DNA from: Arthrobacter crusticola
GTDB lineage: Bacteria > Actinomycetota > Actinomycetes > Actinomycetales > Micrococcaceae
NCBI RefSeq assembly: GCF_004357995.1
Contig: NZ_SMTK01000003.1
Location: forward strand, 682,001 to 746,000
Direction of reading: 5' to 3'
Length of the DNA stretch: 64,000 nucleotides
Shown: positions 22,506-42,803 of the stretch, one piece after another
How positions within the stretch are numbered: the first letter of the stretch is position 1
Layout of the letters: every line of letters starts with the position of its first letter
Made by a program: the position numbers and the translations under genes
The notes under the pieces: generated by a model
The model's database searches: none
The model's input: the letters and a program-made list of their open reading frames with translations, nothing else
Told to the model about the DNA's origin: nothing

Positions 22506-22532
22506 CTATCGGCGGTCAGACCCGGCCCGTAA
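22506..22532 (-). promoter_or_regulatory. Sigma-28-like promoter before fliM
   Basis: Reading the minus strand: TTAC (22529-22532), 15-nt spacer, GCCGATAG (22506-22513). The -10 ends 8 nt before the GTG at 22497, so the transcript may be leaderless. It occupies the 60-nt gap where fliL often sits in other genomes. Confidence 0.6.
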
Positions 22533-22565
22533 GCCGTTGGCCCCCCGCATCGGGCTGCCGCTCCG

Positions 22566-23369
22566 TCAGGGGCGCTGTTCGACCACTTCCGGGATCAGGG
22601 ACCGGACGCTCTCCGGCTGGTCGGAGAGCACGACGATGTCGACCCGGCGGTTGAGCTTCAGGTCCGCCTCGGTGCGGCCCTCGTTCAGGGGCCGGGACTC
22701 GCCGTAGCCGCTGGCCTCCATGCGGGTGCTCTCGACCCCGCCCTGCTCGACCAGGTGCCGGACGACATTGACCGCCCGCGCCGTCGACAGTTCCCAGTCG
22801 AGCACGTAGCGGTCGTCCGGGAGCTTGGCGGTGTGGCCCTCGACGGTGACCTCCCGCGTCGTCGACCGCAGTTCCGGCGCCGTCGCGTCGAGCACGAGCT
22901 GCGCGGCCGCTGTCAGTTCCGCGCGGTCGGGGTTGAAGAAGGTCTCCGAGCTGACCATGCGGACGGTGAGGCCGCGTTCGTCGAGGGTGAATCGGACGGT
23001 GTCCTCAAGGCCCTCCTTCGTCAGGGCGGCCGTAATGCGCTCCTTGATGGCCTCGAGGTCGTCCACCTCCTGGATGGCGAGTTCGAGGTCAGTGAGGTCC
23101 TCGCCCTCCTCCTCGGCCAGCTCCGGAGGCAGGACGATGCCCTCGGCGGTGTCGACCTTGCCCACGTTCTCCACGCCGAAACCCGTGGCCAGGGAGTTCT
23201 TGAGTTTCTCAAACTTCGCCACGTCCACCGAGGACATGGCGAACAGGACGATGAAAAGGCACATCAGCACGGTGACCATGTCGGCGTAGGACACGGCCCA
23301 GCGTTCGTCGGCGTGGAACTCCTCAAGCTGGCTCGCGCGGTAGCCGCGGCGCGGGCCCCTGCGGCTCAC
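22566..23369 (-). CDS. motB: Flagellar stator protein MotB
   Basis: A 267-residue stator subunit. Asp30 in WAVSYADMVTVLM is the proton-carrying residue in the single membrane helix. The C-terminal OmpA-like peptidoglycan-binding domain includes VTVEGHTAKLP and ASGYGESRPL. It overlaps motA by 4 nt. The Asp points to a proton-driven rather than sodium-selective motor, but helix details would decide. Confidence 0.94.
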   Translation of the reverse strand: MSRRGPRRGYRASQLEEFHADERWAVSYADMVTVLMCLFIVLFAMSSVDVAKFEKLKNSLATGFGVENVGKVDTAEGIVLPPELAEEEGEDLTDLELAIQEVDDLEAIKERITAALTKEGLEDTVRFTLDERGLTVRMVSSETFFNPDRAELTAAAQLVLDATAPELRSTTREVTVEGHTAKLPDDRYVLDWELSTARAVNVVRHLVEQGGVESTRMEASGYGESRPLNEGRTEADLKLNRRVDIVVLSDQPESVRSLIPEVVEQRP

Positions 23370-24172
23370 GCGGCCGCCTCAAGGTCGGAAGCGGTGGGGG
23401 GTGCTTCCTTCCGCTTCCCGCCCCGCTTATGGGGAGGGATCATGGCGGTGAGCCGTTCGCCGAGGAGGATGGGCTGGGCCCCTTCCTGCACGGCGAGCAG
23501 TCCCTCCATCTGGAGGTTCATCTGTTCGAGTTCGAGTTCGGAGAGCCGGGCGAGGCGCGCACCGATCGGCAGCCAGATGAAGTTGGCCGAGAGCAGGCCC
23601 CACAGGGTCGCCACGAACGCCGCGGCGATCATGTGCCCGAGTTCCTCGGGGTTGGAGAGGTTCTCAAGGACGTGGGTCAGCGACACGACCGTGCCGACGA
23701 TCCCGACGGTCGGGGCGTACCCGCCGAGGCTGTTGTAGAACTTGGAGACGGCGTGGTTCGCCTTCCGGCGGGTGCTGATTTCGTCCTCGAGCAGGATGCG
23801 CAGATCCTCGCCGTCGGTGCCGTCGGCGATGTTCTGCAGCCCGTTCTTCATGAACGGATCGTCGGTTTCGGCCGCCTCGGCCTCAAGGGCCAACAGTCCG
23901 TCGGCGCGGGCCTTCTCCGCGAACCGGATGATCTGGTCCACGCTGTCCTGCGGCGAGTCGGTCCGGCCGCGGAACGCCTTGGGCAGGGACTTCACCGCCT
24001 GGAGAACGTCCTTAATGGTCGAGCTGGCGATGCCGATGGCGATGGTGGCGCCGAGCACCAGGATCATCGGGGCGGGCAGCAGCAGGGAGCTGACGTGCGC
24101 GCCCTCCATGAAGATCATGGCGTAGAGGGAGCCGAACGCGAGGAGGAGACCGATCAGGGTTGCGGGATCCAT
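23366..24172 (-). CDS. motA: Flagellar stator protein MotA
   Basis: A 268-residue stator subunit with four membrane helices. PTVGIVGTVVSLTHVLENL and the GHMIAAAFVATLWGLLSANF segment are the conserved MotA helices 3 and 4. The start at 24172 (MDPATLIG) is chosen over the upstream ATG because it matches the family and lies 4 nt after the flbD stop. Confidence 0.94.
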   Translation of the reverse strand: MDPATLIGLLLAFGSLYAMIFMEGAHVSSLLLPAPMILVLGATIAIGIASSTIKDVLQAVKSLPKAFRGRTDSPQDSVDQIIRFAEKARADGLLALEAEAAETDDPFMKNGLQNIADGTDGEDLRILLEDEISTRRKANHAVSKFYNSLGGYAPTVGIVGTVVSLTHVLENLSNPEELGHMIAAAFVATLWGLLSANFIWLPIGARLARLSELELEQMNLQMEGLLAVQEGAQPILLGERLTAMIPPHKRGGKRKEAPPTASDLEAAA

Positions 24173-24176
24173 GGCG

Positions 24177-24530
24177 CTACTTTCTGGGGCGCTGGCCGGC
24201 GGGACCGGGCAGGACGTCGTGCGGGTGGACAATGCTCAGGTGCGTCGGCTCGCGCCCGCTCTCGGCGCGGGCCTCCGTGACGGTTCCCGGCCCGGTGACG
24301 CTTCCCGCGGCGTCGCCGGCGTCGGCACCAGGCAGCCGGTGGGCGTAGGTGAGGACCCGCGCGCGGAATTCGACGACGAGTGTGATCACCTCATCGAGGG
24401 ACTCGGTGACGATGTGCCGCATCCCGTTGACCATGACGAGGGTGGTGTCCGGGCTGGCATGGATGCGCTCCACGAGATCGGGGTTGATGCCGAACCGGTC
24501 GGTGCCGTTCAGCCGGGTCAGGACAATCAT
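24177..24530 (-). CDS. flbD: FlbD-family flagellar protein with C-terminal extension
   Basis: The first ~65 residues are FlbD: MIVLTRLNGTDRFGINPDLV, ERIHASPDTTLVMVNG, then VTESLDEVITLVVEFR. FlbD proteins are usually 60-80 residues and have no settled biochemical role. This one has 117, the extra ~50 being Gly/Thr/Glu-rich and apparently disordered. First gene of flbD-motA-motB, 54 nt after a sigma-28-like promoter. Confidence 0.88.
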   Translation of the reverse strand: MIVLTRLNGTDRFGINPDLVERIHASPDTTLVMVNGMRHIVTESLDEVITLVVEFRARVLTYAHRLPGADAGDAAGSVTGPGTVTEARAESGREPTHLSIVHPHDVLPGPAGQRPRK

Positions 24531-24584
24531 GGGTTCCGTTCCGCGTTCTCGTGTCGGCGGCCCGGTCGGGCTGCTCCTTTGTAA

Positions 24585-24611
24585 CAGTCGGCAGTTCGGC
24601 GCGGTTCGTTA
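24585..24611 (-). promoter_or_regulatory. Sigma-28-like promoter before flbD-motA-motB
   Basis: Minus strand: TAAC (24608-24611), 15-nt spacer, GCCGACTG (24585-24592). This differs from the fliC promoter only by C for T in the -10. It lies in the gap where foreign-looking genes have entered the flagellar block. Confidence 0.55.
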
Positions 24612-24749
24612 GGAGCCGCTGCCCGGGGCCCACCCGCCGAGACGGCACATAACCACGCTTTCCCGACCCCGAAGGGTGGTGACCTGCAATCTCGGCGGGG
24701 CGGCTCTCGTCCCTCGGCCCCAGCTGACAATCAACTGCTGCTCGTAGGC

Positions 24750-24911: not shown

Positions 24912-24923
24912 GGTCGGGTGTCC

Positions 24924-28785: not shown

Positions 28786-29958
28786 TTACCGCTTGAGGTT
28801 CGTCAGTTCCTGAAGGACCTCGTCCGAGGTGGTGATGACACGCGCGTTGGACTGGAAACCACGCTGGGCCACGATGAGGTTGGTGAACTCCTGCGACAGG
28901 TCCACATTGGACATCTCGAGGAAGCCGCTGGCGAGGGTGCCGAATCCGGGCGAACCGGCGGTGCCGAGCGTGGGGTTGCCGGAATTGGCGGTGGCCCGGA
29001 AGGTGGATCCTCCGGCCTTTTCCAACCCGCCGGGGTTGGTGAAGGTGGCCAGGGCGATCTGGCCGATGACGATCCGGCTGCCGTTGCTGAACGCGCCGGT
29101 GATGCTTCCGTCCTTGCCCAGGGCGAAGGACTCGAGGGTGCCCGCGGCCCGGCCGTCCTGCGCCGAGACCTTCACCGTGCTCAGGCCCGCAAAGCCGGTC
29201 ACGCCGGTGAGGTCGACGTCGACACCGCCGACGGTCAGCGCGCCGCCTCCGGTGAGCTTGCCGTCGGTGAAGGTGAGGGCGGTGGTGCCCGTGGCGGCGC
29301 CGTCGGCGCCGTTGACGTTCCAGCCGCCGGCGGTCCGGGTGAAGGTCAGGGACAGGGTGCGCACATTGCCCGAGGCGTCGTAGACCTTGACGTCGCGCAC
29401 CAGGGAGGACCCGACGGCGGACTCGGCCGGCAGGTTCCCGTCGATGGTCGCGCTGGTGGTGGCCACGGCCGGGGCGGTGTTCTGGCCCAGGACGATGTTG
29501 TCGACGGCTCCACCCTTCTGCACGACGCCGTTGACGGCCGGCCAGCCCTGGAGGAACGCGCCGTCGGGAGTGACCAGGCGGCCGCGCTCGTCGAAGTCGG
29601 CGTCGAACGAACCGGCCCGGCTGTAGACCTGCTGGCCACCGGAGTTCAGGACGAAGAAGCCGTCGCCGGAGATCATCAGGTCCGTCGCCTTGCCCGTGGC
29701 CTGGGCGGAGCCCTGGGCGAAGTTGGTCGAGATTCCGGCGACCTGCACGCCCAGGCCGATCTGGGCCGGGTTGGTGCCGCCGCGGGTGTCGTCACCGCCG
29801 CCGGCCGCCTGCTGCAGCTGCGAGAGGGTGTCCTGGAACTGCACGGAGGAGGACTTGAACCCGTTGGTGTTGACGTTGGCGATGTTGTTGCCGGTGACAT
29901 CGAGCATCGTCTGGTGGGAACGCATGCCGGAGATGCCGGAGAAGAGTGAGCGGAGCAT
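28786..29958 (-). CDS. flgE: Flagellar hook protein FlgE
   Basis: A 390-residue hook protein. The N-terminal rod-type motif (LFSGISGMRSHQTMLDVTGN, then IANVNTNGFKSS) and the C-terminal DLSQEFTNLIVAQRGFQSNA with ITTSDEVLQELTNLKR are the coiled-coil D0 segments. The central region is Gly/Thr/Ala-rich. A GGAAGGA site precedes the ATG. It is the last gene of the flgB transcript before the inserted segment. Confidence 0.94.
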   Translation of the reverse strand: MLRSLFSGISGMRSHQTMLDVTGNNIANVNTNGFKSSSVQFQDTLSQLQQAAGGGDDTRGGTNPAQIGLGVQVAGISTNFAQGSAQATGKATDLMISGDGFFVLNSGGQQVYSRAGSFDADFDERGRLVTPDGAFLQGWPAVNGVVQKGGAVDNIVLGQNTAPAVATTSATIDGNLPAESAVGSSLVRDVKVYDASGNVRTLSLTFTRTAGGWNVNGADGAATGTTALTFTDGKLTGGGALTVGGVDVDLTGVTGFAGLSTVKVSAQDGRAAGTLESFALGKDGSITGAFSNGSRIVIGQIALATFTNPGGLEKAGGSTFRATANSGNPTLGTAGSPGFGTLASGFLEMSNVDLSQEFTNLIVAQRGFQSNARVITTSDEVLQELTNLKR

Positions 29959-29999
29959 TGTGCTTCCTTCCGAGAGGGGTGGAGTGCGGGTGGATGGTG

Positions 30000-30413
30000 C
30001 TAGGAGACGATGCCGGAGATCTGGTCGAGGGGGACCGTCGCGTCGCCGACCTTGACGCGGGGAACGGCGCCTTCGAAGGACACCGAGGACGCGGTGCCGG
30101 TGGCTACCGTGCCGTCGTCCTTGGCGTAACTGACCTTCTTGCCGATGAGGGCGGCAGCGGCCGCTCTCATCTGCAGCCCGAAGGCCTCCTCGCCCTGGGC
30201 GGAGAGTTCGGTGAGCCGCTCCATCATGGCCAGCTGCGTCGTCTGGCCGATCATGGCGTTGGTGTCCATGGGTGAACCGGGGTCCTGGTGCTGCAGCTGC
30301 GTGACGAGCAGGGTCATGAAGACCTTGCTGTCCATCTGCTGCTGCGGCGCGCGGGACGGCGCCGTGGCGTACATCCCGCCCGGGGCCGGCGCTGCTACTG
30401 GATCGATGGGCAC
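30000..30413 (-). CDS. flgD: Flagellar hook capping protein FlgD
   Basis: A 137-residue hook scaffold. DSKVFMTLLVTQLQHQDPGSPMD is split by the conserved core: FMTLLVTQLQHQDP, then FSLLVTQL-type residues and LGMERLTELS-like AMMERLTELSAQGEE. It ends soon after the KKVSYAKDDG strand, so it is the short form without the full FnIII-type domain. Confidence 0.9.
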   Translation of the reverse strand: MPIDPVAAPAPGGMYATAPSRAPQQQMDSKVFMTLLVTQLQHQDPGSPMDTNAMIGQTTQLAMMERLTELSAQGEEAFGLQMRAAAAALIGKKVSYAKDDGTVATGTASSVSFEGAVPRVKVGDATVPLDQISGIVS

Positions 30414-30427
30414 TGGATCTCCATTTC

Positions 30428-32140
30428 TCAGGCCATCACATTCAGTGAAGGCGCGTCGTCGGAAAGGCGTGGGCGGCGGTCGGGCTGCGGGGCGTCGTCG
30501 TCCCGGCCGGCAGGGGACCGGCCCGGGTGCTGCTGGGCGGGACCGCGCCGCGATCCCTCCGCCCCCGGCTCGCCGGGCTGGTGGCGGGAGGACAGGTCGA
30601 GGCTGGCGTTGAGGCCGGAGCCGGCCAGGTCCCGCTTGAGTTCCGCGAGCACCGCCTTGAGGGCGTCCCTGCCTCCATCGGTGGGAGCGAAGAGTTCGAC
30701 CCGGACACTGCTGTCCGCACCGATGAGGGCGCGGACCGTCACCGGGCCGAGGTCCTCTGGGGTGACCTTCAGCACCAGAACGTGCTCGCCCGGGGTCTTG
30801 CCCGCCAGGGCTGTCACCGGCCGGGACAGCTGGGCGGCGAGGGCGGCCGGCGGTGGGGCGGGAGCGGCAGCGTTTCCGGTGCCCGGTACGGCCGGTGCAG
30901 CGGCCGGCATCGGGAGGACACCGGCGGGAGGCTGAAGGCCGGGGAGGGGCCCCTGGGGGTGCGGTACCGGCCCTGCGGGGGCGGCGGGTGCCGGGGCACC
31001 GGGTGCCGGTGCCGCCGTGGCGGGTGCGCCGGTCGCGGCGGCTGCGGTGTCGGTACCGGCTGGGCCGGGGTGGAACGCCGCACCGGCGGAGGCCGGTGCG
31101 GCGGGATCGATAGGCACGGCGGCGCCGGCCGTCGAGACCGGCTGCGGGCCCGCGCCCGGGACCGGCACGGGGGGACCGGACGGCTGAACCGCGGGTGCAC
31201 CGGAGCCGGCGCCCGGTCCTGCCACGGCAGCGGAGGACGCCGTGGCCGGTCCCTCCCCGGGCAGCGCGGGTGCTGCTGCCGGTGTCGGGATTACGGGCAC
31301 TGCGGCCGATCCGGCAGCGGCGGGTGCGGAGGAGGCTGCCGCGGCCGGGCCGGAGGAGGATCCGGCCGCGGCCGTCGTGCCGGAACCGGGCAGAATTTCT
31401 GTGGGCGTCCCGCGGTGGGCGGAGGGCGAAGGGTCCCCTCCGGTCCTCCCGCCGGTGGGCGGGCCCTCCGTGCCGCGGAGCGGGGCGGCGGCTGACGGCA
31501 GGGTGGTGCCGGTGCCGGTGCCGGTGCTGGTATCGGTGCCGGTACTTCCGGTGGCCGTGGTCCCGGCCGGATCGGCACCACCAGAGGTGACGAGGCCCGG
31601 TGTGCCGGGCCCGACGCCGGCCGGAACCGTGCCGGCTGGATGGGCGGCGGCAGCTACTGTGCCGGCAACACCTGCGGTCGCGGCGGTGTCCGGTGCTGTG
31701 TGCCCGCAGGCGCCGTCGGCGGGTTTGGCGTCGCTGGCAGGTCCGCCAGTAGGTCCGTCGGCCGGCGTGGTGCCGGCGACCCCGCCGGGCGTCTGCGGGC
31801 CCGCGCCGGGTCCGCCGACGCCGGAGACAGACGCCTCACCGGGCGTAGCGCCGGTGGAGCCGGTGCGGGGATCGGCAGGTGTCGGAAAGTCGGCAGGGCG
31901 GCGCGCCCCGGCAGGATCCGGACGTCCGGCACTGCGGTCGGCCGCGCCGCGGTCGGTCCGGGGATGGGCAGGCTCGGCGGGGCCGGCGGCGGAGCCGGGG
32001 CGCCTGGACGGCCCCGCCAGCGCCTCACCGAGGGCCGAGGCGAAGCCGGCACCCGACCCGCCTCCCGTCCGGACCGCGGGGATCGGCGCCGGCGCGGATG
32101 CCGTCGCCGTCCCGCGCAGGCCCAGCGCGGTGCCGCTCAT
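30428..32140 (-). CDS. fliK: Flagellar hook-length control protein FliK
   Basis: A 570-residue protein, mostly low-complexity Ala/Pro/Gly/Thr, as expected for the disordered ruler. The conserved C-terminal domain (residues ~450-540) reads VLVLKVTPEDLGPVTVRAL and SVRVELFAPTDGGRDALKAV, which contacts FlhB to switch substrates. Overlaps the NlpC/P60 gene by 4 nt; flgD follows after 14 nt. The base composition creates long false frames on the other strand. Confidence 0.9.
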   Translation of the reverse strand: MSGTALGLRGTATASAPAPIPAVRTGGGSGAGFASALGEALAGPSRRPGSAAGPAEPAHPRTDRGAADRSAGRPDPAGARRPADFPTPADPRTGSTGATPGEASVSGVGGPGAGPQTPGGVAGTTPADGPTGGPASDAKPADGACGHTAPDTAATAGVAGTVAAAAHPAGTVPAGVGPGTPGLVTSGGADPAGTTATGSTGTDTSTGTGTGTTLPSAAAPLRGTEGPPTGGRTGGDPSPSAHRGTPTEILPGSGTTAAAGSSSGPAAAASSAPAAAGSAAVPVIPTPAAAPALPGEGPATASSAAVAGPGAGSGAPAVQPSGPPVPVPGAGPQPVSTAGAAVPIDPAAPASAGAAFHPGPAGTDTAAAATGAPATAAPAPGAPAPAAPAGPVPHPQGPLPGLQPPAGVLPMPAAAPAVPGTGNAAAPAPPPAALAAQLSRPVTALAGKTPGEHVLVLKVTPEDLGPVTVRALIGADSSVRVELFAPTDGGRDALKAVLAELKRDLAGSGLNASLDLSSRHQPGEPGAEGSRRGPAQQHPGRSPAGRDDDAPQPDRRPRLSDDAPSLNVMA

Positions 32141-32811: not shown

Positions 32812-33239
32812 CGCCCGGCACCCCGCGCCGCATGCCGGGCCGACGAGGTGAGCTCATCGAGGAACAGCTGCTCGGCGCGCAGATCGGCCGCGGCCTCGCG
32901 CACCGTGTGCTTCGCCTCGAGTTTCTCCAGCCCGATTGAGCGGGCCCGGGCCGTGGAAAACGCGGCCTGTGCCTGCTCGGCCGATTCCCGGCGGGTGCGC
33001 TCGAGGGCCTCGAGATCCGCGAGCAGGGTGCGCGCTGCGGCGCGGGATGCGGCGATCGCCGCGAGGGTCTCGGGGCCCGTGGGCTCCGACCCGGTGGTCT
33101 CCAGGTCGGTGCGCGCCTTCGACTGACGGTCGGCGGTCTCGGCGACCCGCGCGTTCGCTGCGGCGAGGTCGCCGGCGGCCTCATCCTGTTCGAGCTGGCG
33201 CAGGCGGAGCAGCCCGGCGAGCCGGAAGGTCTGGGTCAT
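32808..33239 (-). CDS. fliJ: Flagellar export chaperone/stalk protein FliJ
   Basis: A 143-residue, almost wholly coiled-coil protein (FRLAGLLRLRQLEQDEAAGD through RTRRESAEQAQAAFSTARAR). FliJ is the stalk inside the FliI ATPase ring. The family is poorly conserved, so position between fliI and the hydrolase and the 4-nt overlaps carry much of the weight. Confidence 0.82.
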   Translation of the reverse strand: MTQTFRLAGLLRLRQLEQDEAAGDLAAANARVAETADRQSKARTDLETTGSEPTGPETLAAIAASRAAARTLLADLEALERTRRESAEQAQAAFSTARARSIGLEKLEAKHTVREAAADLRAEQLFLDELTSSARHAARGAGR

Positions 33240-34570
33240 TGGATACCTCCGAGGGATTGGGCGAGGAGGGCGAGCCGGTTCCAGGCATCCGCGGTCGGCG
33301 TCTGGTCGTCCATGCCCTGCTGAAGGAAGGCGTTGATCTGGTCTTCGTGCGCCAGCGCCGCGTCGACGAGCGGGTTGGAGCCGCTGCGGTAGGCGCCGAC
33401 GTCGATCAGGTCCTGGGCCTGGCGCCGGGCGGCGAGGACCTTCCGCAGGGTCAGGGCGAGGCTGCTGTATTGCTTCGGATTGACCTTCGAGGCGACGCGG
33501 GAGATCGACCCGAGGACATCGATCGAGGGGAAGTGCCCGGCCACGGCCAGCCGGCGGTCGAGGACGAGATGGCCGTCGAGGATGGAGCGCGCGGCGTCGG
33601 CGATCGGTTCGTTGTGGTCGTCTCCGTCCACCAGCACCGTGTACATCCCGGTGACCGAGCCCGAGGTGTCAGTGCCGGCGCGTTCGAGCAGCCGGGAGAG
33701 CACCGAGAAGGTGGACGGCGGGTAGCCGCGGGTGGCGGGAGGCTCCCCGACGGACAGGCCGATCTCGCGCTGGGCCATGGCCACCCGGGTCAGGGAATCC
33801 ATCAGCAGGACGACGTCGGCGCCGCGGTCGCGGAAGGACTCGGCGATGCGGGTGGCGGTGAACGCCGCCCGCAGGCGCATCAGGGCGGGTTCGTCCGAGG
33901 TCGCGACGACGACGATGGAGCGGGCCAGGCCCTCGGCGCCCAGGTCGTCCTCAAGGAATTCACGTACCTCCCGGCCGCGCTCGCCGACGAGAGCGATCAC
34001 CGAGACCTCTGCGTCGGTGCCGCGGGCAATCATCGAGAGCAGCGAGGACTTGCCGACGCCGGAGCCGGCGAACAGGCCCATCCGCTGGCCCTTGCCGATG
34101 GTGGTCAGGGTGTCGACCGCGCGCACGCCCGTGGCGAGCACATCGGTGATCCGGGCCCGTCCCATGGCGCTGGGCGATTCCTTGTCGAGCGCCACGAAGC
34201 CGTCGGCGTCCACCGGGCCCCGGCCGTCGATGGGCCGGCCCAGCCCGTCGAGCACCCGGCCGAAGAGCCCGGCGCCGGTGGGAACCAGGACGGCAGCCGT
34301 GGCGGCGCGCACGGGCAGGCCGGTGCCGAGGCCACTGACCGGGGCGAGCGGCATGCAGCGCAGCCGGGGCCCCTCGGCGGCGACGACCTCGGTGATGACC
34401 TCCCGGCCGCTGTCGCCGACGGTCAGCAGGTCCCCGACGGCACCGGCCAGTCCCGACACCTCGAGGCCGAGGCCGACGACGGAGGTGACGGTGCCGACCT
34501 GTTCCGGGGCACCCACCCGCACGGCGGTGGCGAAGCGTCCGGGGTGCGGCCGCCACGCCGTCGTACTCAC
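33236..34570 (-). CDS. fliI: Flagellar export ATPase FliI
   Basis: A 444-residue ATPase related to F1 beta. Walker A is GLFAGSGVGKSSLL, Walker B is VVLLMDSLTRVAMAQREIGL without the central residues altered, and YPPSTFSVLSRLLERAG is the family signature. It powers loading of flagellar export substrates. The GTG at 34570 overlaps the fliH stop by 4 nt; the longer frame runs into fliH and is not used. Confidence 0.94.
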   Translation of the reverse strand: MSTTAWRPHPGRFATAVRVGAPEQVGTVTSVVGLGLEVSGLAGAVGDLLTVGDSGREVITEVVAAEGPRLRCMPLAPVSGLGTGLPVRAATAAVLVPTGAGLFGRVLDGLGRPIDGRGPVDADGFVALDKESPSAMGRARITDVLATGVRAVDTLTTIGKGQRMGLFAGSGVGKSSLLSMIARGTDAEVSVIALVGERGREVREFLEDDLGAEGLARSIVVVATSDEPALMRLRAAFTATRIAESFRDRGADVVLLMDSLTRVAMAQREIGLSVGEPPATRGYPPSTFSVLSRLLERAGTDTSGSVTGMYTVLVDGDDHNEPIADAARSILDGHLVLDRRLAVAGHFPSIDVLGSISRVASKVNPKQYSSLALTLRKVLAARRQAQDLIDVGAYRSGSNPLVDAALAHEDQINAFLQQGMDDQTPTADAWNRLALLAQSLGGIQ

Positions 34571-35175
34571 GCCCCACCGCCGGCGAGGGCGGCGCGGACC
34601 CGGGCCACCGCGGAACCGATGCGCGCGTCGAGGAACCCGTCGGCGTATTCGGCCACGGCGTCCCCGGCGGCCAAAGCGGGGTCGGCGATCAGCTGCACCT
34701 CCGGCGGGCACACTCCGGCCGCGGTCAGCCGCGCCAGGTCGCCCGGGTGAAGCCGCACCGTATGGACGGCGAAGGGCAGGGGAGCGTTCAGCGCCCGGGC
34801 CACGATGGACCGGGTGGAGTTCCCGCCGTCGGCCAGTTCGTAGCCGATCACCGCTTCGGCCAGCTCAAACGCCGCAGCCGTGATCGCGTCCTCGACGGAG
34901 TCGATCACCGGAACGGAGGCGGCGGTGAGCGCGGAGGCGGCCGAGCGCAGCACCCCGAGGGCAGCTTCGATGCGCACGGCCGCCGCACGGGCCGCCGCGA
35001 GCCGTTCCTCCTCTGCCCGCTCCGCCACGGCGGCGGCATGGGCCGCAGCCTCCCGCAGGCCGGCGGCGTAACCCGCGGCGTGGCCGCGGACGCGGCTTTC
35101 GGCCTCAAGGCGTTCGCGCTCGGGATCGCGCAGCGAAGGGTAGGCGATGGGGGAGAACGCTTCCTCAGTAGACAA
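34567..35175 (-). CDS. fliH: Flagellar export ATPase regulator FliH
   Basis: A 202-residue protein with a long Ala/Glu-rich helix (residues ~25-75, including EEERLAAARAAAVRIEAA) and a C-terminal V-type ATPase E-subunit-like domain (VRLHPGDLARL, ALAAGDAVAEYADGFLDARI). It binds FliI and docks it at the C-ring. The TTG start at 35175 gives an 11-nt overlap with fliG. Confidence 0.85.
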   Translation of the reverse strand: MSTEEAFSPIAYPSLRDPERERLEAESRVRGHAAGYAAGLREAAAHAAAVAERAEEERLAAARAAAVRIEAALGVLRSAASALTAASVPVIDSVEDAITAAAFELAEAVIGYELADGGNSTRSIVARALNAPLPFAVHTVRLHPGDLARLTAAGVCPPEVQLIADPALAAGDAVAEYADGFLDARIGSAVARVRAALAGGGA

Positions 35176-36184
35176 GGTCGTCCTCCTCGCCGCGGCGCAC
35201 GGTGATGGAGCCCTCCGCCTCGAGGGCGCGGATGGCGCGCACAATGTCGGCGCGGGCCTCCTCGACCTGGGAGGCGCGCACCGGCCCGGTGGCGTTCATC
35301 TCGGCCTGGAGCATTTCCTTGTTGCGCTCGGACACGTTCTTTTGGATGGTCTCGACGACGGCGGCGGGGGCCCCGCGCATTGCCACGGCGAGCAGGGCCG
35401 GATCGATGCCGCGCAGGATGGCCTGGATGTCGCGGCGTTCGAGCTTGACGATGTCGGCGAAGGTGAGCATCCGCGAGCGCACCTCCTCGGCCAGTTCCGG
35501 GTCGCGCTCCTCGAGTTCCTGGAGCAGGGCCTTTTCGATCGCGACGTCGGAGCGGTTGATGATGTCCACGAGGGGCTGGATGCCGCCGACGGCCTCGAAA
35601 GACTTCCGCGGCGCGAGGATCGCACCGGCCCGCAGCTTGAGGATGTCGGCCACGATCGTGAGCGCCTCCGGGGACGCCGCGCCCATGGTGGCAAGGCACT
35701 GGGCGACGTCCGCGCGCTGGGACTCGCCCAGGCCCGCCAGCACCGCGGAGGCCGTATCGGGCCGGAGGTGGGCGAGCACGAGGGCGATGGTCTGGGGGAG
35801 TTCGCCGTCGAGGATGCCGAGCAGCTGGCCGGGTTCGGCGTTGGCGAGGAACTCGAAGGACTTCCCGGCCATGGTGGAGGCCATCCGGGTCATCAGCCCG
35901 GCGGCCTTCTCCTGCCCGAAGGACGCCTGGAGCAGGCCGGCGGCGAAGTCCCGCCCGCCCCGGGCGGGCCGCTTGCCCTGGACTGTCACCTCGTGGAAGT
36001 CGATGATGACCTTCTCGGCGGTGTCCGGGTTCACCGAGCGCAGCTTCACGATCTCGGAGGCCACGTCCTCGGCCTCGGCTTCCGTGAAGTGCTGCATCAC
36101 CTGCACCGCCCGCTCCTGGGACATCTGCATCAGGATGACGGCGGCCTTCTGGATCCCGGTGAGGTCGATATCCGTTTCGTTCAT
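35165..36184 (-). CDS. fliG: Flagellar motor switch protein FliG
   Basis: A 339-residue rotor protein. DLTGIQKAAVILMQMSQERA begins the N domain that holds FliF; GELPQTIALVLAHLRPD is the middle-domain signature close to the EHPQT-type motif; FADIVKLERRDIQAILRGID and the charged helix before NVSERNKEMLQAEMNATGPV make torque with MotA. It overlaps fliF by 4 nt. Confidence 0.95.
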   Translation of the reverse strand: MNETDIDLTGIQKAAVILMQMSQERAVQVMQHFTEAEAEDVASEIVKLRSVNPDTAEKVIIDFHEVTVQGKRPARGGRDFAAGLLQASFGQEKAAGLMTRMASTMAGKSFEFLANAEPGQLLGILDGELPQTIALVLAHLRPDTASAVLAGLGESQRADVAQCLATMGAASPEALTIVADILKLRAGAILAPRKSFEAVGGIQPLVDIINRSDVAIEKALLQELEERDPELAEEVRSRMLTFADIVKLERRDIQAILRGIDPALLAVAMRGAPAAVVETIQKNVSERNKEMLQAEMNATGPVRASQVEEARADIVRAIRALEAEGSITVRRGEEDDLVY

Positions 36185-37788
36185 ACCGGGACCTTTTCGT
36201 CCATCAGGTCACGCAGGTAGTCGGCGGTCTTCTTCGGGTCGCGGGCGGCGAGGGATTCGATCTCGTTGCGGGCCCGTTCGGCCGCGGCCGGTTCCACCGG
36301 CGCGGCCGGGGCCGGCGGCAGCACCACGCCGATCGACGACGTCGTGGGCGCCGGCTCGATCGGGGTGACGGCGGGCAGGTCGAGCTCGAACGGCGCCGCA
36401 AGCGGCCGCTCGCCCAGGTCGATCAGCTCACGGCGCTGGCGACGGTTCCGCACGGCGAAGACGATCACGAGAATGAGCACCAGCAGTACGGCCCCGATGG
36501 CGTAGAACCCGGTGCGCAGCAGCTCGGCGTTCCGGGCCTCCTTCTCGGCGGCCTTTGCCTCGGCCAGGGCGGCGGCGGCCTCGTCGGCTCCGGCGGTGTT
36601 GAACGGCAGGACCTCGACGGCGACGGCGTCCCCGCGCTCGGCGTCGATGCCGGCGGCGGTGTTCACCAGCCCGGTCAGGGCGGCCAGGTCCAGGCCGCGG
36701 GCGGCCTCGGCGTCGAGGGCCACCGAGACGGTCTGCCGGTTAAGCGAGCCGGCGGGGATCGCCGTCGTCTCGGTCGTCTTGTTGAGCGCGTTGTTGCGGG
36801 TGCTGGTTTCGGAGTCGAACGTGCCGTCGCCGTTGCCGCCGTCGGGCACGGCGATATTGTCCGGGCCGAGCACGCCCGCTCCGCCGCCGCCGGTCCCGGT
36901 ATACGTCTCGGTGGTCGTGGACTCGTTCAGCGCCGGGGCGTCCTCGGGGGTGGTGAAGGTTTCCTCGAGCCGTTCCCCGGACTCATTGTTCATGTCCGCG
37001 GCGACGGCCACCGTCGCGTTGCCCGGGCCGAGGACCCGGTCGAGCATGGCCTGGACGGCGCCGGAGACGCGCTGTTCGTAGTTGGAGGCCTGCTTGTCGG
37101 AGGAGCCGGTGGCGCCGACGCCCACGGCGGACAGGACGGTGCCGCGCGAGTCGATGACGGCCACATTCTTGGCCTGCATCCCCTCGAGGGAAGCCGAGGT
37201 CAGGTGCACGATGGCCTGCACCTGGTCGTCGCTGAGTTCGGCGGCGCTGCGGGTCTCGACGAACACGGAGGCGGTGGGGTCGGCCTTTTCCTTGGTGAAC
37301 ACCGTGGCCTCGGGAATGGCGAGCTGCACGGAGGCGGTCTTAACGCCCTCCATCGTCTCGATGGTGGCGGCAAGTTCCCCTTCGAGGGCCCGCTTGTAGG
37401 TGACGGACTGCTGGAACTCGGAGGAGGTCACGCCCATGTCGTCGAGCAGGGAGTAGCCGCCGGTCGATTCGGAGGGAAGCCCCGCGGAGGCGGCCTTCAG
37501 CCGCTGGTCGTAGACGTTCGCCTCGGGCACGAGGATGGTGGAGCCCCCGCTGGTGATTTCGTAGGGCACCCCGTCGGTGCGCAGCTGCTCCACGATGATG
37601 CTCGCGTCCTCCGCCTGGAGCCCCGAGAACAGGGGAGTGTAGGCGGGCTTGGTGAGCCAGGAGGTGAGCAGGACGGAGCCGAGGACGAGGACGGCCACAC
37701 CGAGCAGGGCCAGGGTCTTCTGGGCCAGGGAGAATTCTTTGACCGTCCCGGCCACGCGCGACATCGAGGCCGGCAGGAGCGAGGCCAT
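36181..37788 (-). CDS. fliF: Flagellar MS-ring protein FliF
   Basis: A 535-residue ring protein with membrane helices near both ends (TLALLGVAVLVLGSVLLTSW and FYAIGAVLLVLILVIVFAV). PLFSGLQAEDASIIVEQLR and VPYEITSGGSTILVPEANVY form the ring-building motifs. The C-terminal tail (AARDPKKTADYLRDLMDEK) binds FliG. It overlaps fliE by one nt (TGATG). Confidence 0.95.
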   Translation of the reverse strand: MASLLPASMSRVAGTVKEFSLAQKTLALLGVAVLVLGSVLLTSWLTKPAYTPLFSGLQAEDASIIVEQLRTDGVPYEITSGGSTILVPEANVYDQRLKAASAGLPSESTGGYSLLDDMGVTSSEFQQSVTYKRALEGELAATIETMEGVKTASVQLAIPEATVFTKEKADPTASVFVETRSAAELSDDQVQAIVHLTSASLEGMQAKNVAVIDSRGTVLSAVGVGATGSSDKQASNYEQRVSGAVQAMLDRVLGPGNATVAVAADMNNESGERLEETFTTPEDAPALNESTTTETYTGTGGGGAGVLGPDNIAVPDGGNGDGTFDSETSTRNNALNKTTETTAIPAGSLNRQTVSVALDAEAARGLDLAALTGLVNTAAGIDAERGDAVAVEVLPFNTAGADEAAAALAEAKAAEKEARNAELLRTGFYAIGAVLLVLILVIVFAVRNRRQRRELIDLGERPLAAPFELDLPAVTPIEPAPTTSSIGVVLPPAPAAPVEPAAAERARNEIESLAARDPKKTADYLRDLMDEKVPV

Positions 37789-38093
37789 CAGGCCTGCATC
37801 CGCATGATCTCGTTGAACGCGTCGACGCCCTTGTTGCGGACGGCGGCGACGAGCTCAAGGGACACCGCGGCCCGCGTCGAGGCGATGGTGGCGTCGTGGA
37901 TGTCGTCGAGGTTCCCGCTGGCGGCCTTCAGCGACAGGGTGTCGGACGCGCCCGAGAGGGCCTGCACGTTGTCGACGGCGGCGGTCAGGGCCGAGGCGAA
38001 GGCCGACCCGTCGGTCGAGGGGACCGGGGCGGTGGCGGGCACGTAGCCCGTGGCGGTGATCGCCTGGACGGGGGTCAGCGGTGCGGGGGCCAT
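37788..38093 (-). CDS. fliE: Flagellar hook-basal body protein FliE
   Basis: A 101-residue proximal rod/MS-ring adaptor. The C-terminal half (DTLSLKAASGNLDDIHDATI, RAAVSLELVAAVRNKGVDAF, NEIMRMQA) is typical. It overlaps both flgC and fliF by one nt. Confidence 0.92.
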   Translation of the reverse strand: MAPAPLTPVQAITATGYVPATAPVPSTDGSAFASALTAAVDNVQALSGASDTLSLKAASGNLDDIHDATIASTRAAVSLELVAAVRNKGVDAFNEIMRMQA

Positions 38094-38485
38094 CAGGACC
38101 TTCCAATCTGCAGTGCGGCTTCGTAGGTGGTTTTGGCGCGGTCGACGACGGCGGCGTTGGCCTCGTAGCCTCGCTGGGCCATGATGAGCATCGACATCTG
38201 TTCGCCCATGTCGATGTCGGGGTACCGGACGTAGCCGTCCTCATCGGCCAGGGGGTGGTCGGGTTCGTGGACCATCCGCCCCTCGGCGTCACCCCACTCC
38301 GCCCCGCTGACGTACACCCCGCCGACGCCGGCGCCTTCCTGCGCGACGATGTAGCGGGCCTGGAAGGCGGCACCGTCGGTGCTGGTGGCCGTGTTGATGT
38401 TGGCGAGGTTGTCCGACACGGCGTCGAGCCACTTGCGGTGCACGCTGAGGGAGGTCCCGGCGATGCCGATCGCGTCGAAGGTCAT
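38093..38485 (-). CDS. flgC: Flagellar rod protein FlgC
   Basis: A 130-residue proximal rod protein. The N-terminus FDAIGIAGTSLSVHRKWLDA with DNLANINTA and the C-terminus PDIDMGEQMSMLIMAQRGYE with TYEAALQIGRS are the rod-family ends. The start at 38485 overlaps the flgB stop by one nt. Confidence 0.94.
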   Translation of the reverse strand: MTFDAIGIAGTSLSVHRKWLDAVSDNLANINTATSTDGAAFQARYIVAQEGAGVGGVYVSGAEWGDAEGRMVHEPDHPLADEDGYVRYPDIDMGEQMSMLIMAQRGYEANAAVVDRAKTTYEAALQIGRS

Positions 38486-38826
38486 CAGTTGGTCCTCATC
38501 GCCGTGCGGACATTGTTGAACGTTCCTTCGACGGCGCGTGCCGCAAACTGGTAGCGCAGCACCGTGTCGATATTCGAGAGGGTTTCGGTATCGAGGTTCA
38601 CGTTGTTCCCGTTCAGCTTCGTCGGCTCCAGGGACCGCTGCATCTCGCTCTGGGCGGCGCCGCTGCCGGCGCGCACGGAGGCGGTCAGGGCCTCTTCGAA
38701 CTTGACGCGGCGGGCGGTGTAGCCGGGGGTGTTCACATTGGCGATGTTGCTGGCGATGGCCTTTTGGCGCAGCGCCAGCCCGTCGAGCGCACTGTGAAGT
38801 CCCAGGGAGGTGATGGATTCGAACAC
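38485..38826 (-). CDS. flgB: Flagellar rod protein FlgB
   Basis: A 113-residue proximal rod protein, first gene of the long flgB-flgE transcript. SLGLHSALDGLALRQKAIAS then NIANVNTPGYTARRVKFEEA are diagnostic. The GTG at 38826 follows AAGGCAGG. A two-hairpin leader and a sigma-28-like promoter lie upstream. Confidence 0.94.
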   Translation of the reverse strand: MFESITSLGLHSALDGLALRQKAIASNIANVNTPGYTARRVKFEEALTASVRAGSGAAQSEMQRSLEPTKLNGNNVNLDTETLSNIDTVLRYQFAARAVEGTFNNVRTAMRTN

Positions 38827-38899: not shown

Positions 38900-38926
38900 C
38901 TATCGGCATCCACTCGGGGTTGGTAA
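38900..38926 (-). promoter_or_regulatory. Sigma-28-like promoter before flgB
   Basis: Minus strand: TTAC (38923-38926), 15-nt spacer, GCCGATAG (38900-38907). It would drive the whole flgB-fliK-flgD-flgE transcript. The -35 and -10 are identical to those before fliM. Confidence 0.62.
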
Positions 38927-39536: not shown

Positions 39537-39875
39537 TCAGCCCGTGACGTCGAGGCTGCCCGTCCTGGCCAGATCGGCTGAGGCCGACTCGACGGCCCCG
39601 AGGTGGCGGGCCACCGTGGCCCGGGCCTGACCCAGTGCGGACAGGGCGGCCAGCTGGGCCTCGTTCACGCGGCGGGCATGTTCGCGGAGGTCGGCGGGCA
39701 TCGGGCCCAGGCCCTGCGGCGGTTCCCAGGCTGCGATGGCGGGAGCGGGAAGCTGCGGGTCGGACGCGGCGCGCTGGGCTTCGAAAACGACGTCCTCGAG
39801 CTGGGCCAGCGCCGCGGTCCAGCCTGCTCGCCCCAGGGCGCCGGCCCCCTCGGCTCCCGCAGCGTCAGGCCACAC
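39537..39875 (-). CDS. fliT: Probable FliT-type flagellar chaperone
   Basis: A 112-residue Ala-rich helical protein directly after fliS. The GTG at 39875 overlaps the fliS stop by 11 nt. Size and the fliD-fliS-fliT order match FliT, the FliD chaperone, but sequence similarity is weak: WTAALAQLEDVVFEAQRAAS then LREHARRVNEAQLAALSALG are the main helices. The call rests on position and shape. Confidence 0.6.
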   Translation of the reverse strand: MWPDAAGAEGAGALGRAGWTAALAQLEDVVFEAQRAASDPQLPAPAIAAWEPPQGLGPMPADLREHARRVNEAQLAALSALGQARATVARHLGAVESASADLARTGSLDVTG

Positions 39876-40299
39876 CCAGGCTCCCGGCGGATCGGGCCGG
39901 ATCCCAGGAGTTCTGGGCAGGCAGGGAAGCGGAAGCCTCGTGCCAGGCCTCACGCAGCGGCTCAAGCAGGGCGATGCACTCCCGGGTGGCCTTGATGTCG
40001 CGGTGCATGTTGGCCGCCATCAGCGCGTTCGACACGTAGGTGTAGAGCCCGAAAAGGTTCTCCGCTCCGTCCCACGCGTCCTTCTTCAGGGACGAGGACA
40101 GTTCGGCGATGATCTCCTGCGCGTGGAGAAGCTGCGCCGACGCGGCCTGCCAGTTCTCGGCCGCCTGCGCCTGCTCGGCACGGGCCAAGTCGAGCAGAAG
40201 CCGGTCGTAGAGCATGGTGAGCAGCCGTGCCGGTGTCGCGGAGAGGACCGATTCCCGCAGGTACTTCCGGCGTTGGTCGGTGGAGGTGTTCATCATCAT
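39865..40299 (-). CDS. fliS: Flagellin export chaperone FliS
   Basis: A 144-residue four-helix chaperone. YLRESVLSATPARLLTMLYD and RLLLDLARAEQA are the family core, and LFGLYTYVSNALMAANMHRD is the second conserved helix. It keeps flagellin unfolded before export and, in Bacillus, helps release FliW from flagellin. It overlaps fliD by 4 nt. Confidence 0.93.
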   Translation of the reverse strand: MMMNTSTDQRRKYLRESVLSATPARLLTMLYDRLLLDLARAEQAQAAENWQAASAQLLHAQEIIAELSSSLKKDAWDGAENLFGLYTYVSNALMAANMHRDIKATRECIALLEPLREAWHEASASLPAQNSWDPARSAGSLGVA

Positions 40300-41624
40300 T
40301 TCTTTCCGTCACTTCCCTGGGTCGACAGCGAGGCGAGCTGGGCAGTGAGCCAGCTGGACTGGCTGTTCATCGACTGCATGGCCACCTCAAGGGCGACATA
40401 GGTGCTCTTCAGACGGGCCTCGCGGGAGGCCAGCCGGATATCCCAGGCCGCGACCTGGTCGTTGAGACCGCGGACCTGACCCTCGCCGCTGGTGATCTTG
40501 GCCGCAATCATCCCCCCGTATTTATCCGAGGCGGTCTTCCCTGCCGCTTCGAGGCGCGAGCCGATGGTGCGCACCGCTGCGTCTACCGCCGCCGGATCCT
40601 TCGCCAGGGCGGCCTTGAACTTCGCGGGGTCGAACTCCATGGTGCCGTTCTTGGTGATGCTGATGCCGTATTCCGACGGCGAAACGCCGCCGATCGGGGC
40701 CGACGCCGCCGTAAGCAGGCTCTGACCGATGGTCCGAACCGTGCTGTCGGTGGTGAACACCCCGAGGGTGGTGACCGGCTTTCCGTTTGCGTCCGCCGTC
40801 GTCGAGGTCTTCTGCTTGCTCGTGATGTAGGCGAGCACATCGTTGAGGCCCTTAACCAGGGCCTCGGCCTTGGCCGCGATGCCGTCGGCGTCCTGGGCCA
40901 CACTGATGGTGACGGGGGTAGCCGAGACCGCCGCAACGGTGACGGAGAGCCCGGTCTGAAGGTTCGCGAACGTGTTGGTCCCCGAGGTGACCGGCTGTTC
41001 CGCGGCGGTTCCCTTCCACAGGGTGATCTGCGCGTCCTGGGCCGACTGGATCTGGGTGAAGGTTCCCGCGGTCCCGGAGAGGGTGAAGGCCCCGGCCGCG
41101 CCGGTGGCCTTGGAGGTCAGCTGGAGACGGTAGTTGCCGTCACCGGTGGAGACCTTGGTGGCGCTGACGTTGGCGGTGGAGGCATTGACGGCCTTGACGA
41201 CGTCGTCGAGGCTCGTCGACGCAGCGGTGACGGTAACGGCGGTGCCGTTGGCGCCGGTGATGGTCAGGGAGGTGTCGGGCCACTGGGTGAGGGGCGCCGA
41301 GACCGAGCTCTGCTTAGTGGCGAGCCGGTCGATCGTGAAGTCTACGGAACCGGCGGCGGCGCCGGCGCCGGCGGTGGCCGTTGCCGCGGTGGAGGAGGAG
41401 TTGGCGGTGAATAAGGCCAGGGCGCCCGGTTTCGCGGCGGCCGTCGACAGCGCGGTCAGATTGGTGATCCCGGTGTTGAGCGCCTTCAGGGCGTCGACGG
41501 TGGCCTGGGCGCGCACCGATTTGTTGTAGAGGATGTTCTGCGGGATGCGTTCGATGTCCATCATGGCCTTGATAAGCGCTGTCGTATCAAGGTTGCTGGC
41601 AAGTCCGTCCAGTGAAATTCCCAC
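40296..41624 (-). CDS. fliD: Flagellar filament cap protein FliD
   Basis: A 442-residue cap (HAP2). GISLDGLASNLDTTALIKAM and MDIERIPQNILYNK form the N-terminal domain; the C-terminal coiled coil is LNDQVAAWDIRLASREARLK with LEVAMQSMNSQSSWLTAQLA. It lies 124 nt after fliC, past a hairpin, and heads fliD-fliS-fliT. Confidence 0.93.
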   Translation of the reverse strand: MGISLDGLASNLDTTALIKAMMDIERIPQNILYNKSVRAQATVDALKALNTGITNLTALSTAAAKPGALALFTANSSSTAATATAGAGAAAGSVDFTIDRLATKQSSVSAPLTQWPDTSLTITGANGTAVTVTAASTSLDDVVKAVNASTANVSATKVSTGDGNYRLQLTSKATGAAGAFTLSGTAGTFTQIQSAQDAQITLWKGTAAEQPVTSGTNTFANLQTGLSVTVAAVSATPVTISVAQDADGIAAKAEALVKGLNDVLAYITSKQKTSTTADANGKPVTTLGVFTTDSTVRTIGQSLLTAASAPIGGVSPSEYGISITKNGTMEFDPAKFKAALAKDPAAVDAAVRTIGSRLEAAGKTASDKYGGMIAAKITSGEGQVRGLNDQVAAWDIRLASREARLKSTYVALEVAMQSMNSQSSWLTAQLASLSTQGSDGKK

Positions 41625-41669
41625 GCGGGTGGCTCCTCAAAGCGTCGGTTGGTGATGGCGGTGGAAACG

Positions 41670-41731
41670 GGAACCGCCGGCGGCGGCACAGGCGGGCTGG
41701 GATGCCCCGCCCGGCTGCCACCGGCGGTTCC
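41670..41731 (-). terminator. fliC terminator/attenuator hairpin
   Basis: An 11-bp stem (GGAACCGCCGG at 41670-41680 with CCGGCGGTTCC at 41721-41731) encloses a second GGCGGG/CCCGCC stem. It lies 17 nt after the fliC stop and would let fliC be expressed above fliD. Confidence 0.6.
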
Positions 41732-41748
41732 GTTATGAAGCAGCCGGT

Positions 41749-42612
41749 TTAGCCGAGGAGCTTCAGGACGCTCTGGGTGGACTGGTTCGCCTGGGCGAGC
41801 ATCGAAACGCCGGCCTGGGAGAGGATGTTGGCCTTGGTGAACTTGACCATCTCCTCCGCCATGTCGGTGTCGCGGATGCGGGATTCGGCGGCGGCCAGGT
41901 TCTCCTTGGAGACCGCGAGGGACTTGCCCGCGGACTCGAGGCGGTTCTGGGAAGCACCCAGCTCCGAACGCTGTGCAGAGACGGCGGCGATCGCAACGTC
42001 CAGTGCGGCGACCGTGGTCGTCGCGCCGGCCGAGGTGGCGACATTGAAGCCGGTTGCTCCGGTGACGCTGGAGAAGACCGGTCCGCCGCCGTTGATGCTG
42101 GCGTTGGCGTCGCCGAGGTTCACCGAGATGGTGTTGTCGGCGGCACCGTCGGCGCCAACCTGCAGGCTGATGACACCGGCGGTTCCGGCGGTACCGTCGA
42201 GGAGCTTGATGCCGTTGAAGTTGGTGGACGAGGTGATGCGGGCAAGTTCCTCACCGAGGGCATCGGCTTCGGTCTTGATCGCGGTGCGCGACTGGGCGTT
42301 GTTCGAGTCGTTGCCGCCCTGGACAGCCAGGTCGCGCATACGGTGCAGGATCGAGTGGACCTCGGTCAGTGCGCCTTCAGCGGTCTGGATGACGGAGATG
42401 CCGTCCTGGGCGTTGCGCTGGGCAACTCCGAGGCCCGAGACCTGCGAGCGCAGGCCCTCGGAGATGGACAGGCCGGCAGCGTCGTCGGCAGCACGGTTGA
42501 TGCGAAGGCCGCTGGAGAGCTTCTCCAGGGACTTGCTCAGGTCGTTCTGCGTGTTGGACAGGGCGCGGAAAGCGTTGTTCGCCGCGGTGTTGGTATTGAT
42601 CTGCATACCCAT
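41749..42612 (-). CDS. fliC: Flagellin
   Basis: A 287-residue flagellin with short variable centre. The N-terminal D0/D1 region (QINTNTAANNAFRALSNTQN, LEKLSSGLRINRAADDAAG) and the C-terminal end (MVKFTKANILSQAGVSMLAQ, ANQSTQSVLKLLG) are canonical. Only one flagellin gene is present in the window. The strong GGAGGA ribosome-binding site, the upstream GGA-loop hairpin and the sigma-28-like promoter all point to tight late-class control. Confidence 0.96.
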   Translation of the reverse strand: MGMQINTNTAANNAFRALSNTQNDLSKSLEKLSSGLRINRAADDAAGLSISEGLRSQVSGLGVAQRNAQDGISVIQTAEGALTEVHSILHRMRDLAVQGGNDSNNAQSRTAIKTEADALGEELARITSSTNFNGIKLLDGTAGTAGVISLQVGADGAADNTISVNLGDANASINGGGPVFSSVTGATGFNVATSAGATTTVAALDVAIAAVSAQRSELGASQNRLESAGKSLAVSKENLAAAESRIRDTDMAEEMVKFTKANILSQAGVSMLAQANQSTQSVLKLLG

Positions 42613-42618
42613 GATCTA

Positions 42619-42662
42619 TTCCTCCATGAATTGTTGTGTAGCGTCGGGCCCATCCTTGGGCC
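42619..42662 (-). promoter_or_regulatory. Candidate CsrA-binding leader of fliC
   Basis: On the minus strand the leader holds a hairpin GGCCC-AAGGAT-GGGCC (42647-42662) with GGA in its loop; the core CAAGGATG matches the CsrA consensus CARGGAUG. About 22 nt downstream is GGAGGA (42620-42625), the ribosome-binding site, a second GGA site. Paired upstream-hairpin and Shine-Dalgarno sites are the layout known for the Bacillus hag leader. Confidence 0.6.
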
Positions 42663-42674
42663 TTACGCAGAGAA

Positions 42675-42701
42675 CAATCGGCGGCTCCGGCGGCGGCGTT
42701 A
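42675..42701 (-). promoter_or_regulatory. Sigma-28-like promoter of fliC
   Basis: Minus strand: TAAC (42698-42701), 15-nt spacer, GCCGATTG (42675-42682), against the sigma-28 consensus TAAA-N15-GCCGATAA. The predicted start near 42668 leaves a ~56-nt leader. Confidence 0.65.
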
Positions 42702-42755
42702 GCAGAATGCGAAAGTTTTTTTCGAAGTCCCCGGGCCGGGCCCGACGGCGGCGGC

Positions 42756-42803
42756 GCACCTTACATCGGCCGGCATCCCGCCGATGGTTTCTACGTAAGG
42801 TGC
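42756..42803 (+). promoter_or_regulatory. flgN-flgK-flgL promoter inside a nested dyad
   Basis: TTAC (42761-42764), 15-nt spacer and GCCGATGG (42780-42787) form a sigma-28-like promoter on the plus strand. It overlaps a perfect 9-bp inverted repeat (GCACCTTAC at 42756-42764, GTAAGGTGC at 42795-42803) with an inner ATCGGC/GCCGAT pair. The dyad lies between divergent fliC and flgN and could be an operator. Confidence 0.5.

Follow-up and report, generated by a model that had tools for sequence, protein, structure and literature searches.

Predicted sigma-28-like flagellar promoters with a clade-specific -35 element, and a parallel change in the FliA recognition helix, in Arthrobacter crusticola and its relatives

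The flagellar locus of Arthrobacter crusticola, delimited by Pfam matches, lies at 14 to 46 kb of the window analyzed here, that is, the whole stretch of 64,000 nucleotides on contig NZ_SMTK01000003.1 (G000:C3:682001-746000; G+C content 70%; genome of 3.67 Mb in 15 contigs), and contains five sites of the form T(A/T)AC-N15-GCCGA(T/C)NG, one each before fliM, flbD, flgB, fliC and flgN. These sites are very probably promoters read by the FliA-type sigma factor that is encoded at 13.2 kb of the same window, with a -35 code that would have changed in this clade together with the recognition helix of the sigma factor. The predicted -35 element is CTWAC in Microbacteriaceae, Micrococcaceae and Terrabacter, mostly CTCA(G/A) in the other sampled actinobacteria, and classically TAAA.

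Five predicted promoters in one flagellar locus

An earlier note on this DNA had listed the five sites with a uniform spacer of 15 nt; the coordinates and strands proved to be exact (Table 1), as did the spacer in all five cases, and the names that it gave to the downstream genes are consistent with Pfam. The -10 elements before fliM, flbD, flgB, fliC and flgN (GCCGATAG, GCCGACTG, GCCGATAG, GCCGATTG and GCCGATGG, respectively) are close to the sigma-28 element GCCGATAA, and all five sites are located in front of flagellar operons, as sigma-28 promoters are. The classical -35 element TAAA is found in none of the five, all of which have TWAC, and neither is the CTCA element reported for Actinoplanes. 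Since TAAA is absent, we class the sites as a variant that is predicted to work like a sigma-28 promoter. The flgN site also sits within a perfect 10-bp dyad (42755-42804; arms CGCACCTTAC and GTAAGGTGCG, 30 nt apart) that is possibly an operator.

Rarity in the genome and conservation in relatives

The earlier note held that its reading would fall if matches were equally frequent at random sites; the window contains five matches, against a mean of 0.03 in dinucleotide-shuffled windows, and at least five matches were found in none of 100 shuffles. Because the pattern was derived from the same five sites, which could then be chance patterns picked out by the reader, independent controls were added. 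A matrix built from relatives only ranks the five sites 1 to 5 in the window, at 26.6, 25.3, 24.8, 24.0 and 19.4 bits, with the next match at 10.8 bits; in 50 mononucleotide-shuffled windows the best score averaged 10.4 and did not exceed 17.6, the flgN site (19.4 bits) standing out least from these maxima. Moreover, homologous sites, far from being absent in relatives, precede the same genes in dozens of genomes. The circular origin of the pattern and a small genomic excess of inexact matches (below) speak for chance, which is nevertheless rejected on the strength of the independent matrix and of this conservation and to which we assign a negligible probability.

Among 78 loci around the fliC genes of relatives, Firmicutes and other outgroups included, there are 124 strict matches, 120 of them before flgN (45), fliC (38) or flgB (37); of the other four, one precedes fliD in a genome with fliC elsewhere, one is close to fliS in a locus from Firmicutes, and two are unplaced. 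In 20 motility stretches of relatives, fetched for 20 out of 24 genomes with FliM, a site scoring above 11 bits precedes flbD in all 19 stretches that hold this gene (in L274 the sequence at this spacing is CTTAA) and fliM in 19 of 20; the same-genus genomes L280 and L281 possess the fliC, flgN, flbD and fliM sites. In 159 of the 164 called sites of the clade, the -35 tetramer and the -10 8-mer are 15 nt apart. At the level of the class, CTWAC-N15-GCCGATAG occurs in 15 of 394 genomes, namely 7 of the 9 in which an alanine helix was read (see below), including G360, where it lies on another contig than the flagellar locus, and 8 of the 385 others.

Across the A. crusticola genome, the exact pattern has eight matches, five of which are the window sites, and the reversed control pattern has three; two of the three extra matches (L001 and L002) lie inside long frames with GC3 bias and the third (L003) lies outside by the same rule. 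A pattern with the preceding C and a looser -10, CTWAC-N15-GNCGAYNR, has six matches, again including the five window sites, and its reversed control five. With one mismatch allowed, 205 matches compare with 165 for the control, and no large hidden regulon is apparent in this genome-wide scan. On all three scans we reject a genome-wide regulon: the regulon readable by pattern is essentially this locus. The earlier note had proposed a genome scan for enrichment before motility and chemotaxis genes. The scan bore out the sites of the motility locus; as for chemotaxis, profile search detected no match in the genome to methyl-accepting chemotaxis proteins (PF00015), the only chemotaxis family sought, and a chemoreceptor branch of the regulon is rejected on this ground.

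The FliA-type sigma factor and its recognition helix

The product of the sigma gene matches the Pfam models for sigma region 2 (Sigma70_r2, 35 bits, cut-off 24) and region 4 (39.7 bits, cut-off 24.1), and scores 21.6 bits with that for region 3 (cut-off 25.3). Of the solved structures, it matches E. coli FliA best (6pmi; E-value 1e-19, aligned over residues 16-222), and in a tree built without other sigma families it falls among actinobacterial FliA. A protein search of the genome returned a single further sigma relative, 29% identical and with the helix TQMQVSRKL, which we take to be SigB-like. The sigma gene adjoins csrA in the window and lies near csrA also in L112 and L116; most relatives of the clade have it in the flgN-fliC gap. 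No site of the present type was seen before fliA, and autoregulation through such a site is rejected.

The -35 recognition helix reads THSAVSQQR (residues 203-211), in which H204 and A206 align with E218 and R220 of E. coli FliA (chain-position numbering). Thus, in this clade, alanine replaces the arginine of other FliA proteins, which is present in structures 6pmi, 1rp3 and 6pfj, and histidine mostly replaces the Glu or Gln two residues earlier. The place of R220 is taken by Arg in 63 and by Ala in 69 of the 132 FliA helices read, the window protein having Ala; the script sought A or R only and rejected no row of the tree, and 51 rows were checked by eye. The alanine rows form one fully supported clade on a long branch (0.63), whose sister is formed by f8 lineages with Gln-Ser-Arg helices (fork 97/79). 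When 31 alanine proteins are compared with 62 arginine proteins (L080 and L192 having been dropped beforehand), column 204 is the only fully separating column besides 206, which separates by construction as the groups were defined by this residue; several columns in region 2 nearly separate the groups.

The -35 element follows the recognition helix

The association between helix and -35 element was evaluated on 296 called sites from 118 genomes, window excluded, with a site model that fixed -35 position 1 as T and position 3 as A and left positions 2 and 4 flat. The samples comprised 40 fetched genomes out of 53 with a FliA match and, out of 103 in a second set, 37 regions from 36 further genomes; no two loci share more than 30% of sampled 40-mers, and for L075 and L071 the helix was read from L116 and L112, which belong to the same genomes. 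Sites were called in 164 of 172 upstream regions of the alanine group, which pools HSA and HAA helices, and in 132 of 150 of the arginine group, with none called in 8 and 18 regions, respectively. In counts of genomes and sites, as distinct from independent events, position 2 is A or T in 164 of 164 alanine-helix sites and C in 122 of 132 arginine-helix sites, and position 4 is C in 163 of 164 and G or A in 108 of 132, respectively. When the sites are sorted by the residue at E. coli position 218, -35 position 4 is C at 161 of 161 histidine sites and G or A at 86 of 88 sites with Glu or Asp.

Motifs were also sought de novo, in each helix group separately and starting from no given motif; this returned CT(A.83/T.17)AC-GCCGATAG for the alanine group (164 upstream regions) and CTCA(G/A)-GCCGA(T/A), in the same register, for the arginine group (81 upstream regions). 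When the pentamer at fixed distance from every GCCGA is simply read off, it is CTAAC or CTTAC in 122 of 163 cases in the alanine group and CTCAG or CTCAA in 45 of 85 in the arginine group. The arginine-helix actinobacteria that show CTCA(G/A)-N15-GCCGA(T/A) are Nocardioides, Geodermatophilus and the lineages f2, f3, f5, f20, f24, f34 and f36. In new genomes scanned with the de novo matrices, 54 of 85 upstream regions scored above 8, and the -35 was of the CTWAC class in 13 of 13 alanine-helix cases (the helix being read by eye in three) and of the CTCA class in 37 of 41 arginine-helix cases; the remaining 31 regions, 2 with an alanine and 29 with an arginine helix, fell below 8 and are uninformative. 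Furthermore, lineages in which the -10 has drifted retain TWAC, with GCCGAGAG or GCCGACAG in f9 and, as read by eye, CGCGATAG in L186 and L192.

The distinct -35 element remarked upon in the earlier note is thus a feature of an entire clade with a parallel change in the sigma factor, and its proposal of sigma-28-like promoters forming one regulon under the 13.2-kb sigma factor remains the best explanation. In the mechanism that we propose, sigma region 4 would read CTWAC at -35 and region 2 would read the GCCGATAG-like -10, 15 nt away, with transcription presumably starting shortly downstream. It might be argued that another sigma factor, or a paired operator, reads the sites: we infer the link of this sigma factor to them, its gene has no such site in front, and it is removed from the flgN-fliC gap, its place in most relatives. 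This is quite improbable, given that the genome encodes a single close FliA, the next relative being only 29% identical, that the motif retains the -10 and the spacing of sigma-28 promoters, and that the -35 class tracks the FliA helix class across genomes.

Order of events and cause

As to how the association arose, we favor, with some reserve, a natural change of promoter code, in which the -35 specificity of FliA would have shifted from CTCA(G/A) to CTWAC via Arg to Ala and Glu/Gln to His and the promoters would have moved along, leaving intermediates in sister lineages (Gln-Ser-Arg helix with CTCAT, CTTAT and CTAAC). At the level of the helix, xSRVSQ would have become HSAVSQ as the code moved from TAAA or CTCA(G/A) to CTWAC.

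Several observations weigh against the proposed mechanism, this change of code included. Because the alanine group is a single clade, the association is close to one evolutionary event. The arginine-helix sisters L229, L231 and L255 carry TTAT, TAAC, TAAT or TAAA, and L230, L240 and L241, likewise with an arginine helix, have TTAA at some sites, so that the first step does not depend on the replacement of Arg by Ala. In f56, which has Gln, five of the six called sites read TCAA or TCAG and the sixth TCAT, so that a Glu to Gln change by itself does not determine position 4. Sigma region 2 also changed on the same long branch. As for the identity of the sigma factor, FliA_WhiG (TIGR02479) is the best NCBIfam model, with a score of 118.5 bits that is below the curated cut-off of 189.6. 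Finally, L280 and L281 have no flgB site above 11 bits, and the 8 of 172 alanine-group upstream regions without a called site belong to fliC and flgB in L043, flgB in L079, flgN in L112, L186 and L224, and fliC and flgN in L192; inspection by eye suggests TTAC-N15-CGCGATAG in L186 and TTAC-N16-CGCGATAG before flgN of L192, and the other uncalled regions are unexplained.

A simple rule by which the Arg to Ala replacement equals the new -35 element is rejected, since 9 of 132 arginine-group sites (in L229, L230, L231, L240, L241 and L255) have A or T at position 2. The -35 pentamers in the nearest sisters are CTCAT (L226), CTTAT and CTAAA (L229), TTCAT and CTAAA (L255), and CTAAC, CTAAT and CTTAT (L231), those with CTAAA being weak sites called at a 14-nt spacer. 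Given these mixed elements in arginine-helix lineages, the -35 shift seems to have begun while the arginine was still present, and the f8 genomes L229, L231 and L255 represent a possible intermediate state. Terrabacter has Ser instead of His, and one TTAT among three sites. The association is strong, and the causal residues may be both helix residues or others that changed on the same branch.

The same facts lend themselves to another interpretation, namely that the sites are FliA promoters whose weakly read -35 element drifted, the helix change being unrelated. The single origin of the alanine group and the mixture of -35 elements in sisters with an unchanged arginine are compatible with drift, and the contact of sigma-28 with the -35 element is described, in a structural comparison of sigma factors, as the weakest among those compared (PMC10216364). 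Under drift, however, one would not expect near-invariance of positions 2 and 4 in the alanine group, where the exact -10 GCCGATAG is retained in only 99 of 164 sites, nor that H204, the only other fully separating column, would lie in the recognition helix. We therefore consider drift doubtful and retain the change of promoter code as the preferred reading.

Start of fliM and organization of the locus

The fliM site is present as the earlier note had claimed, but the start in the list of open reading frames (ORFs) needs a correction: the GTG chosen there (22506) is overlapped by the -10, and GTG 22497 is the conserved start. In the window and in 18 of 20 relatives, a long frame begins with a GTG located exactly 8 nt past NCCGATAG, the encoded N-terminus being mostly similar to VTVQE...YDFRR; the exceptions are L275, which lacks the site, and L276, where the frame closes after nine codons. 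The usual gap from the -10 element to the transcription start point is 6-8 nt, and at a spacing of 8 nt the fliM mRNA is probably leaderless or has a leader of a base or two.

The five predicted operons (Table 1) would hold the flagellar genes of the locus except the sigma gene, with fliD and fliS included if they are read through from fliC; a separate site before fliD was not among the best window matches in the scan with the relatives' matrix. With one promoter type before both early genes (fliF, fliG, fliM, flhA) and late genes (fliC, flgK), a single sigma factor probably activates the genes of the entire organelle together, as one tier. The gene fliH is named only from its position and from gene order in relatives.

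Table 1. Features of the flagellar locus, in window coordinates
Feature	Position	Strand	Sequence or basis
Predicted fliM operon promoter	22506..22532	-	CTTAC-N15-GCCGATAG; relatives' matrix; equivalent in 19/20 relatives' stretches
Predicted flbD-motA-motB promoter	24585..24611	-	CTAAC-N15-GCCGACTG; relatives' matrix
Predicted flgB operon promoter	38900..38926	-	CTTAC-N15-GCCGATAG; relatives' matrix; equivalents in relatives
Predicted fliC promoter	42675..42701	-	CTAAC-N15-GCCGATTG; relatives' matrix; equivalents in relatives
Predicted flgN-flgK-flgL-fliW promoter	42761..42787	+	CTTAC-N15-GCCGATGG; relatives' matrix; equivalents in relatives
Probable fliM start (GTG)	22495..22497	-	8 nt after -10; same spacing and open frame in 18/20 relatives
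FliA-type sigma factor gene	13189..14019	+	Likely start ATG 13189; listed frame begins 12922; conserved part from 13189
Codons of -35 recognition helix	13795..13821	+	Residues 203-211; alignments
fliM fliN fliP fliQ fliR flhB flhA, ORF with weak FlhF match, csrA	14067..22497	-	Pfam/NCBIfam; predicted co-transcription
flbD motA motB	22566..24530	-	Pfam; predicted co-transcription
flgB flgC fliE fliF fliG (fliH) fliI fliJ NlpC/P60 fliK flgD flgE	28786..38826	-	Pfam/NCBIfam; predicted co-transcription
fliC fliD fliS	39865..42612	-	Pfam
flgN flgK flgL fliW	42852..46031	+	Pfam; predicted co-transcription

The flagellin is nearest to those of Leifsonia, Paeniglutamicibacter and other Microbacteriaceae and Micrococcaceae, at about 70% identity in a comparison from which records of the nearest genomes are possibly missing. 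Between flgE and flbD (24924-28557) lie a gene for a membrane acyltransferase-like protein and a gene pair for a response regulator and a histidine kinase (Pfam); flgE adjoins flbD in some relatives' stretches, e.g., L264, L267 and L272. An NlpC/P60 hydrolase gene (32137-32811) is lodged within the flagellar cluster, flanked by fliK and fliJ; many relatives have a homologue after fliJ or fliI. Nothing was found when the window was scanned with Rfam and for tRNA genes.

Comparison with known systems

The predicted promoters share with the classical sigma-28/WhiG promoter (TAAA-N15-GCCGATAA) the bipartite structure, the 15-nt spacer, the GCCGAT -10 and the location upstream of flagellar operons; TAAA-type sites were also seen before flagellin in several of the sampled Firmicutes loci. 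In contrast to the classical type, the clade has CTWAC in place of TAAA, a last -10 base that is mostly G instead of A, and a sigma factor whose recognition helix lacks the arginine. E. coli FliA (6pmi/6pmj), the closest solved relative of the window sigma factor in sequence, has E218-S-R220-VSQ-L224 where the latter has H-S-A-VSQ-Q. Among the open-licence articles listed as matches, judged by titles and the openings of abstracts, we recognized no flagellar promoter consensus for this clade. On these comparisons, we regard the five putative promoters as a new variant form of the sigma-28 type.

In one study, TAAA / GCCGATAA is called the well-established flagellar consensus and serves as the query in promoter searches (PMC8325347). 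Such a search would fit poorly in these actinobacteria. If the helix change explains the -35 change, an entire regulon and its sigma factor moved together, with intermediate lineages still alive, and it becomes testable whether the promoters or the protein changed first.

With respect to the control of the regulon, the flagellar scheme of E. coli is tiered, whereas the locus described here suggests a single sigma factor for early and late genes; FlgM (PF04316) had no match in the genome by profile search, although a diverged FlgM is possible. A closer parallel is offered by Actinoplanes missouriensis, in which flagellar promoters reportedly read CTCA-N15-17-GCCGAA and are of one type for all flagellar genes. 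The architecture is the same, and this consensus fits the CTCA(G/A) class that the de novo search returned for other actinobacteria; the window and its clade differ in the -35, of which the second base is A or T and the fourth is C, and the single-tier control suggested here would likewise resemble that said to operate in Actinoplanes.

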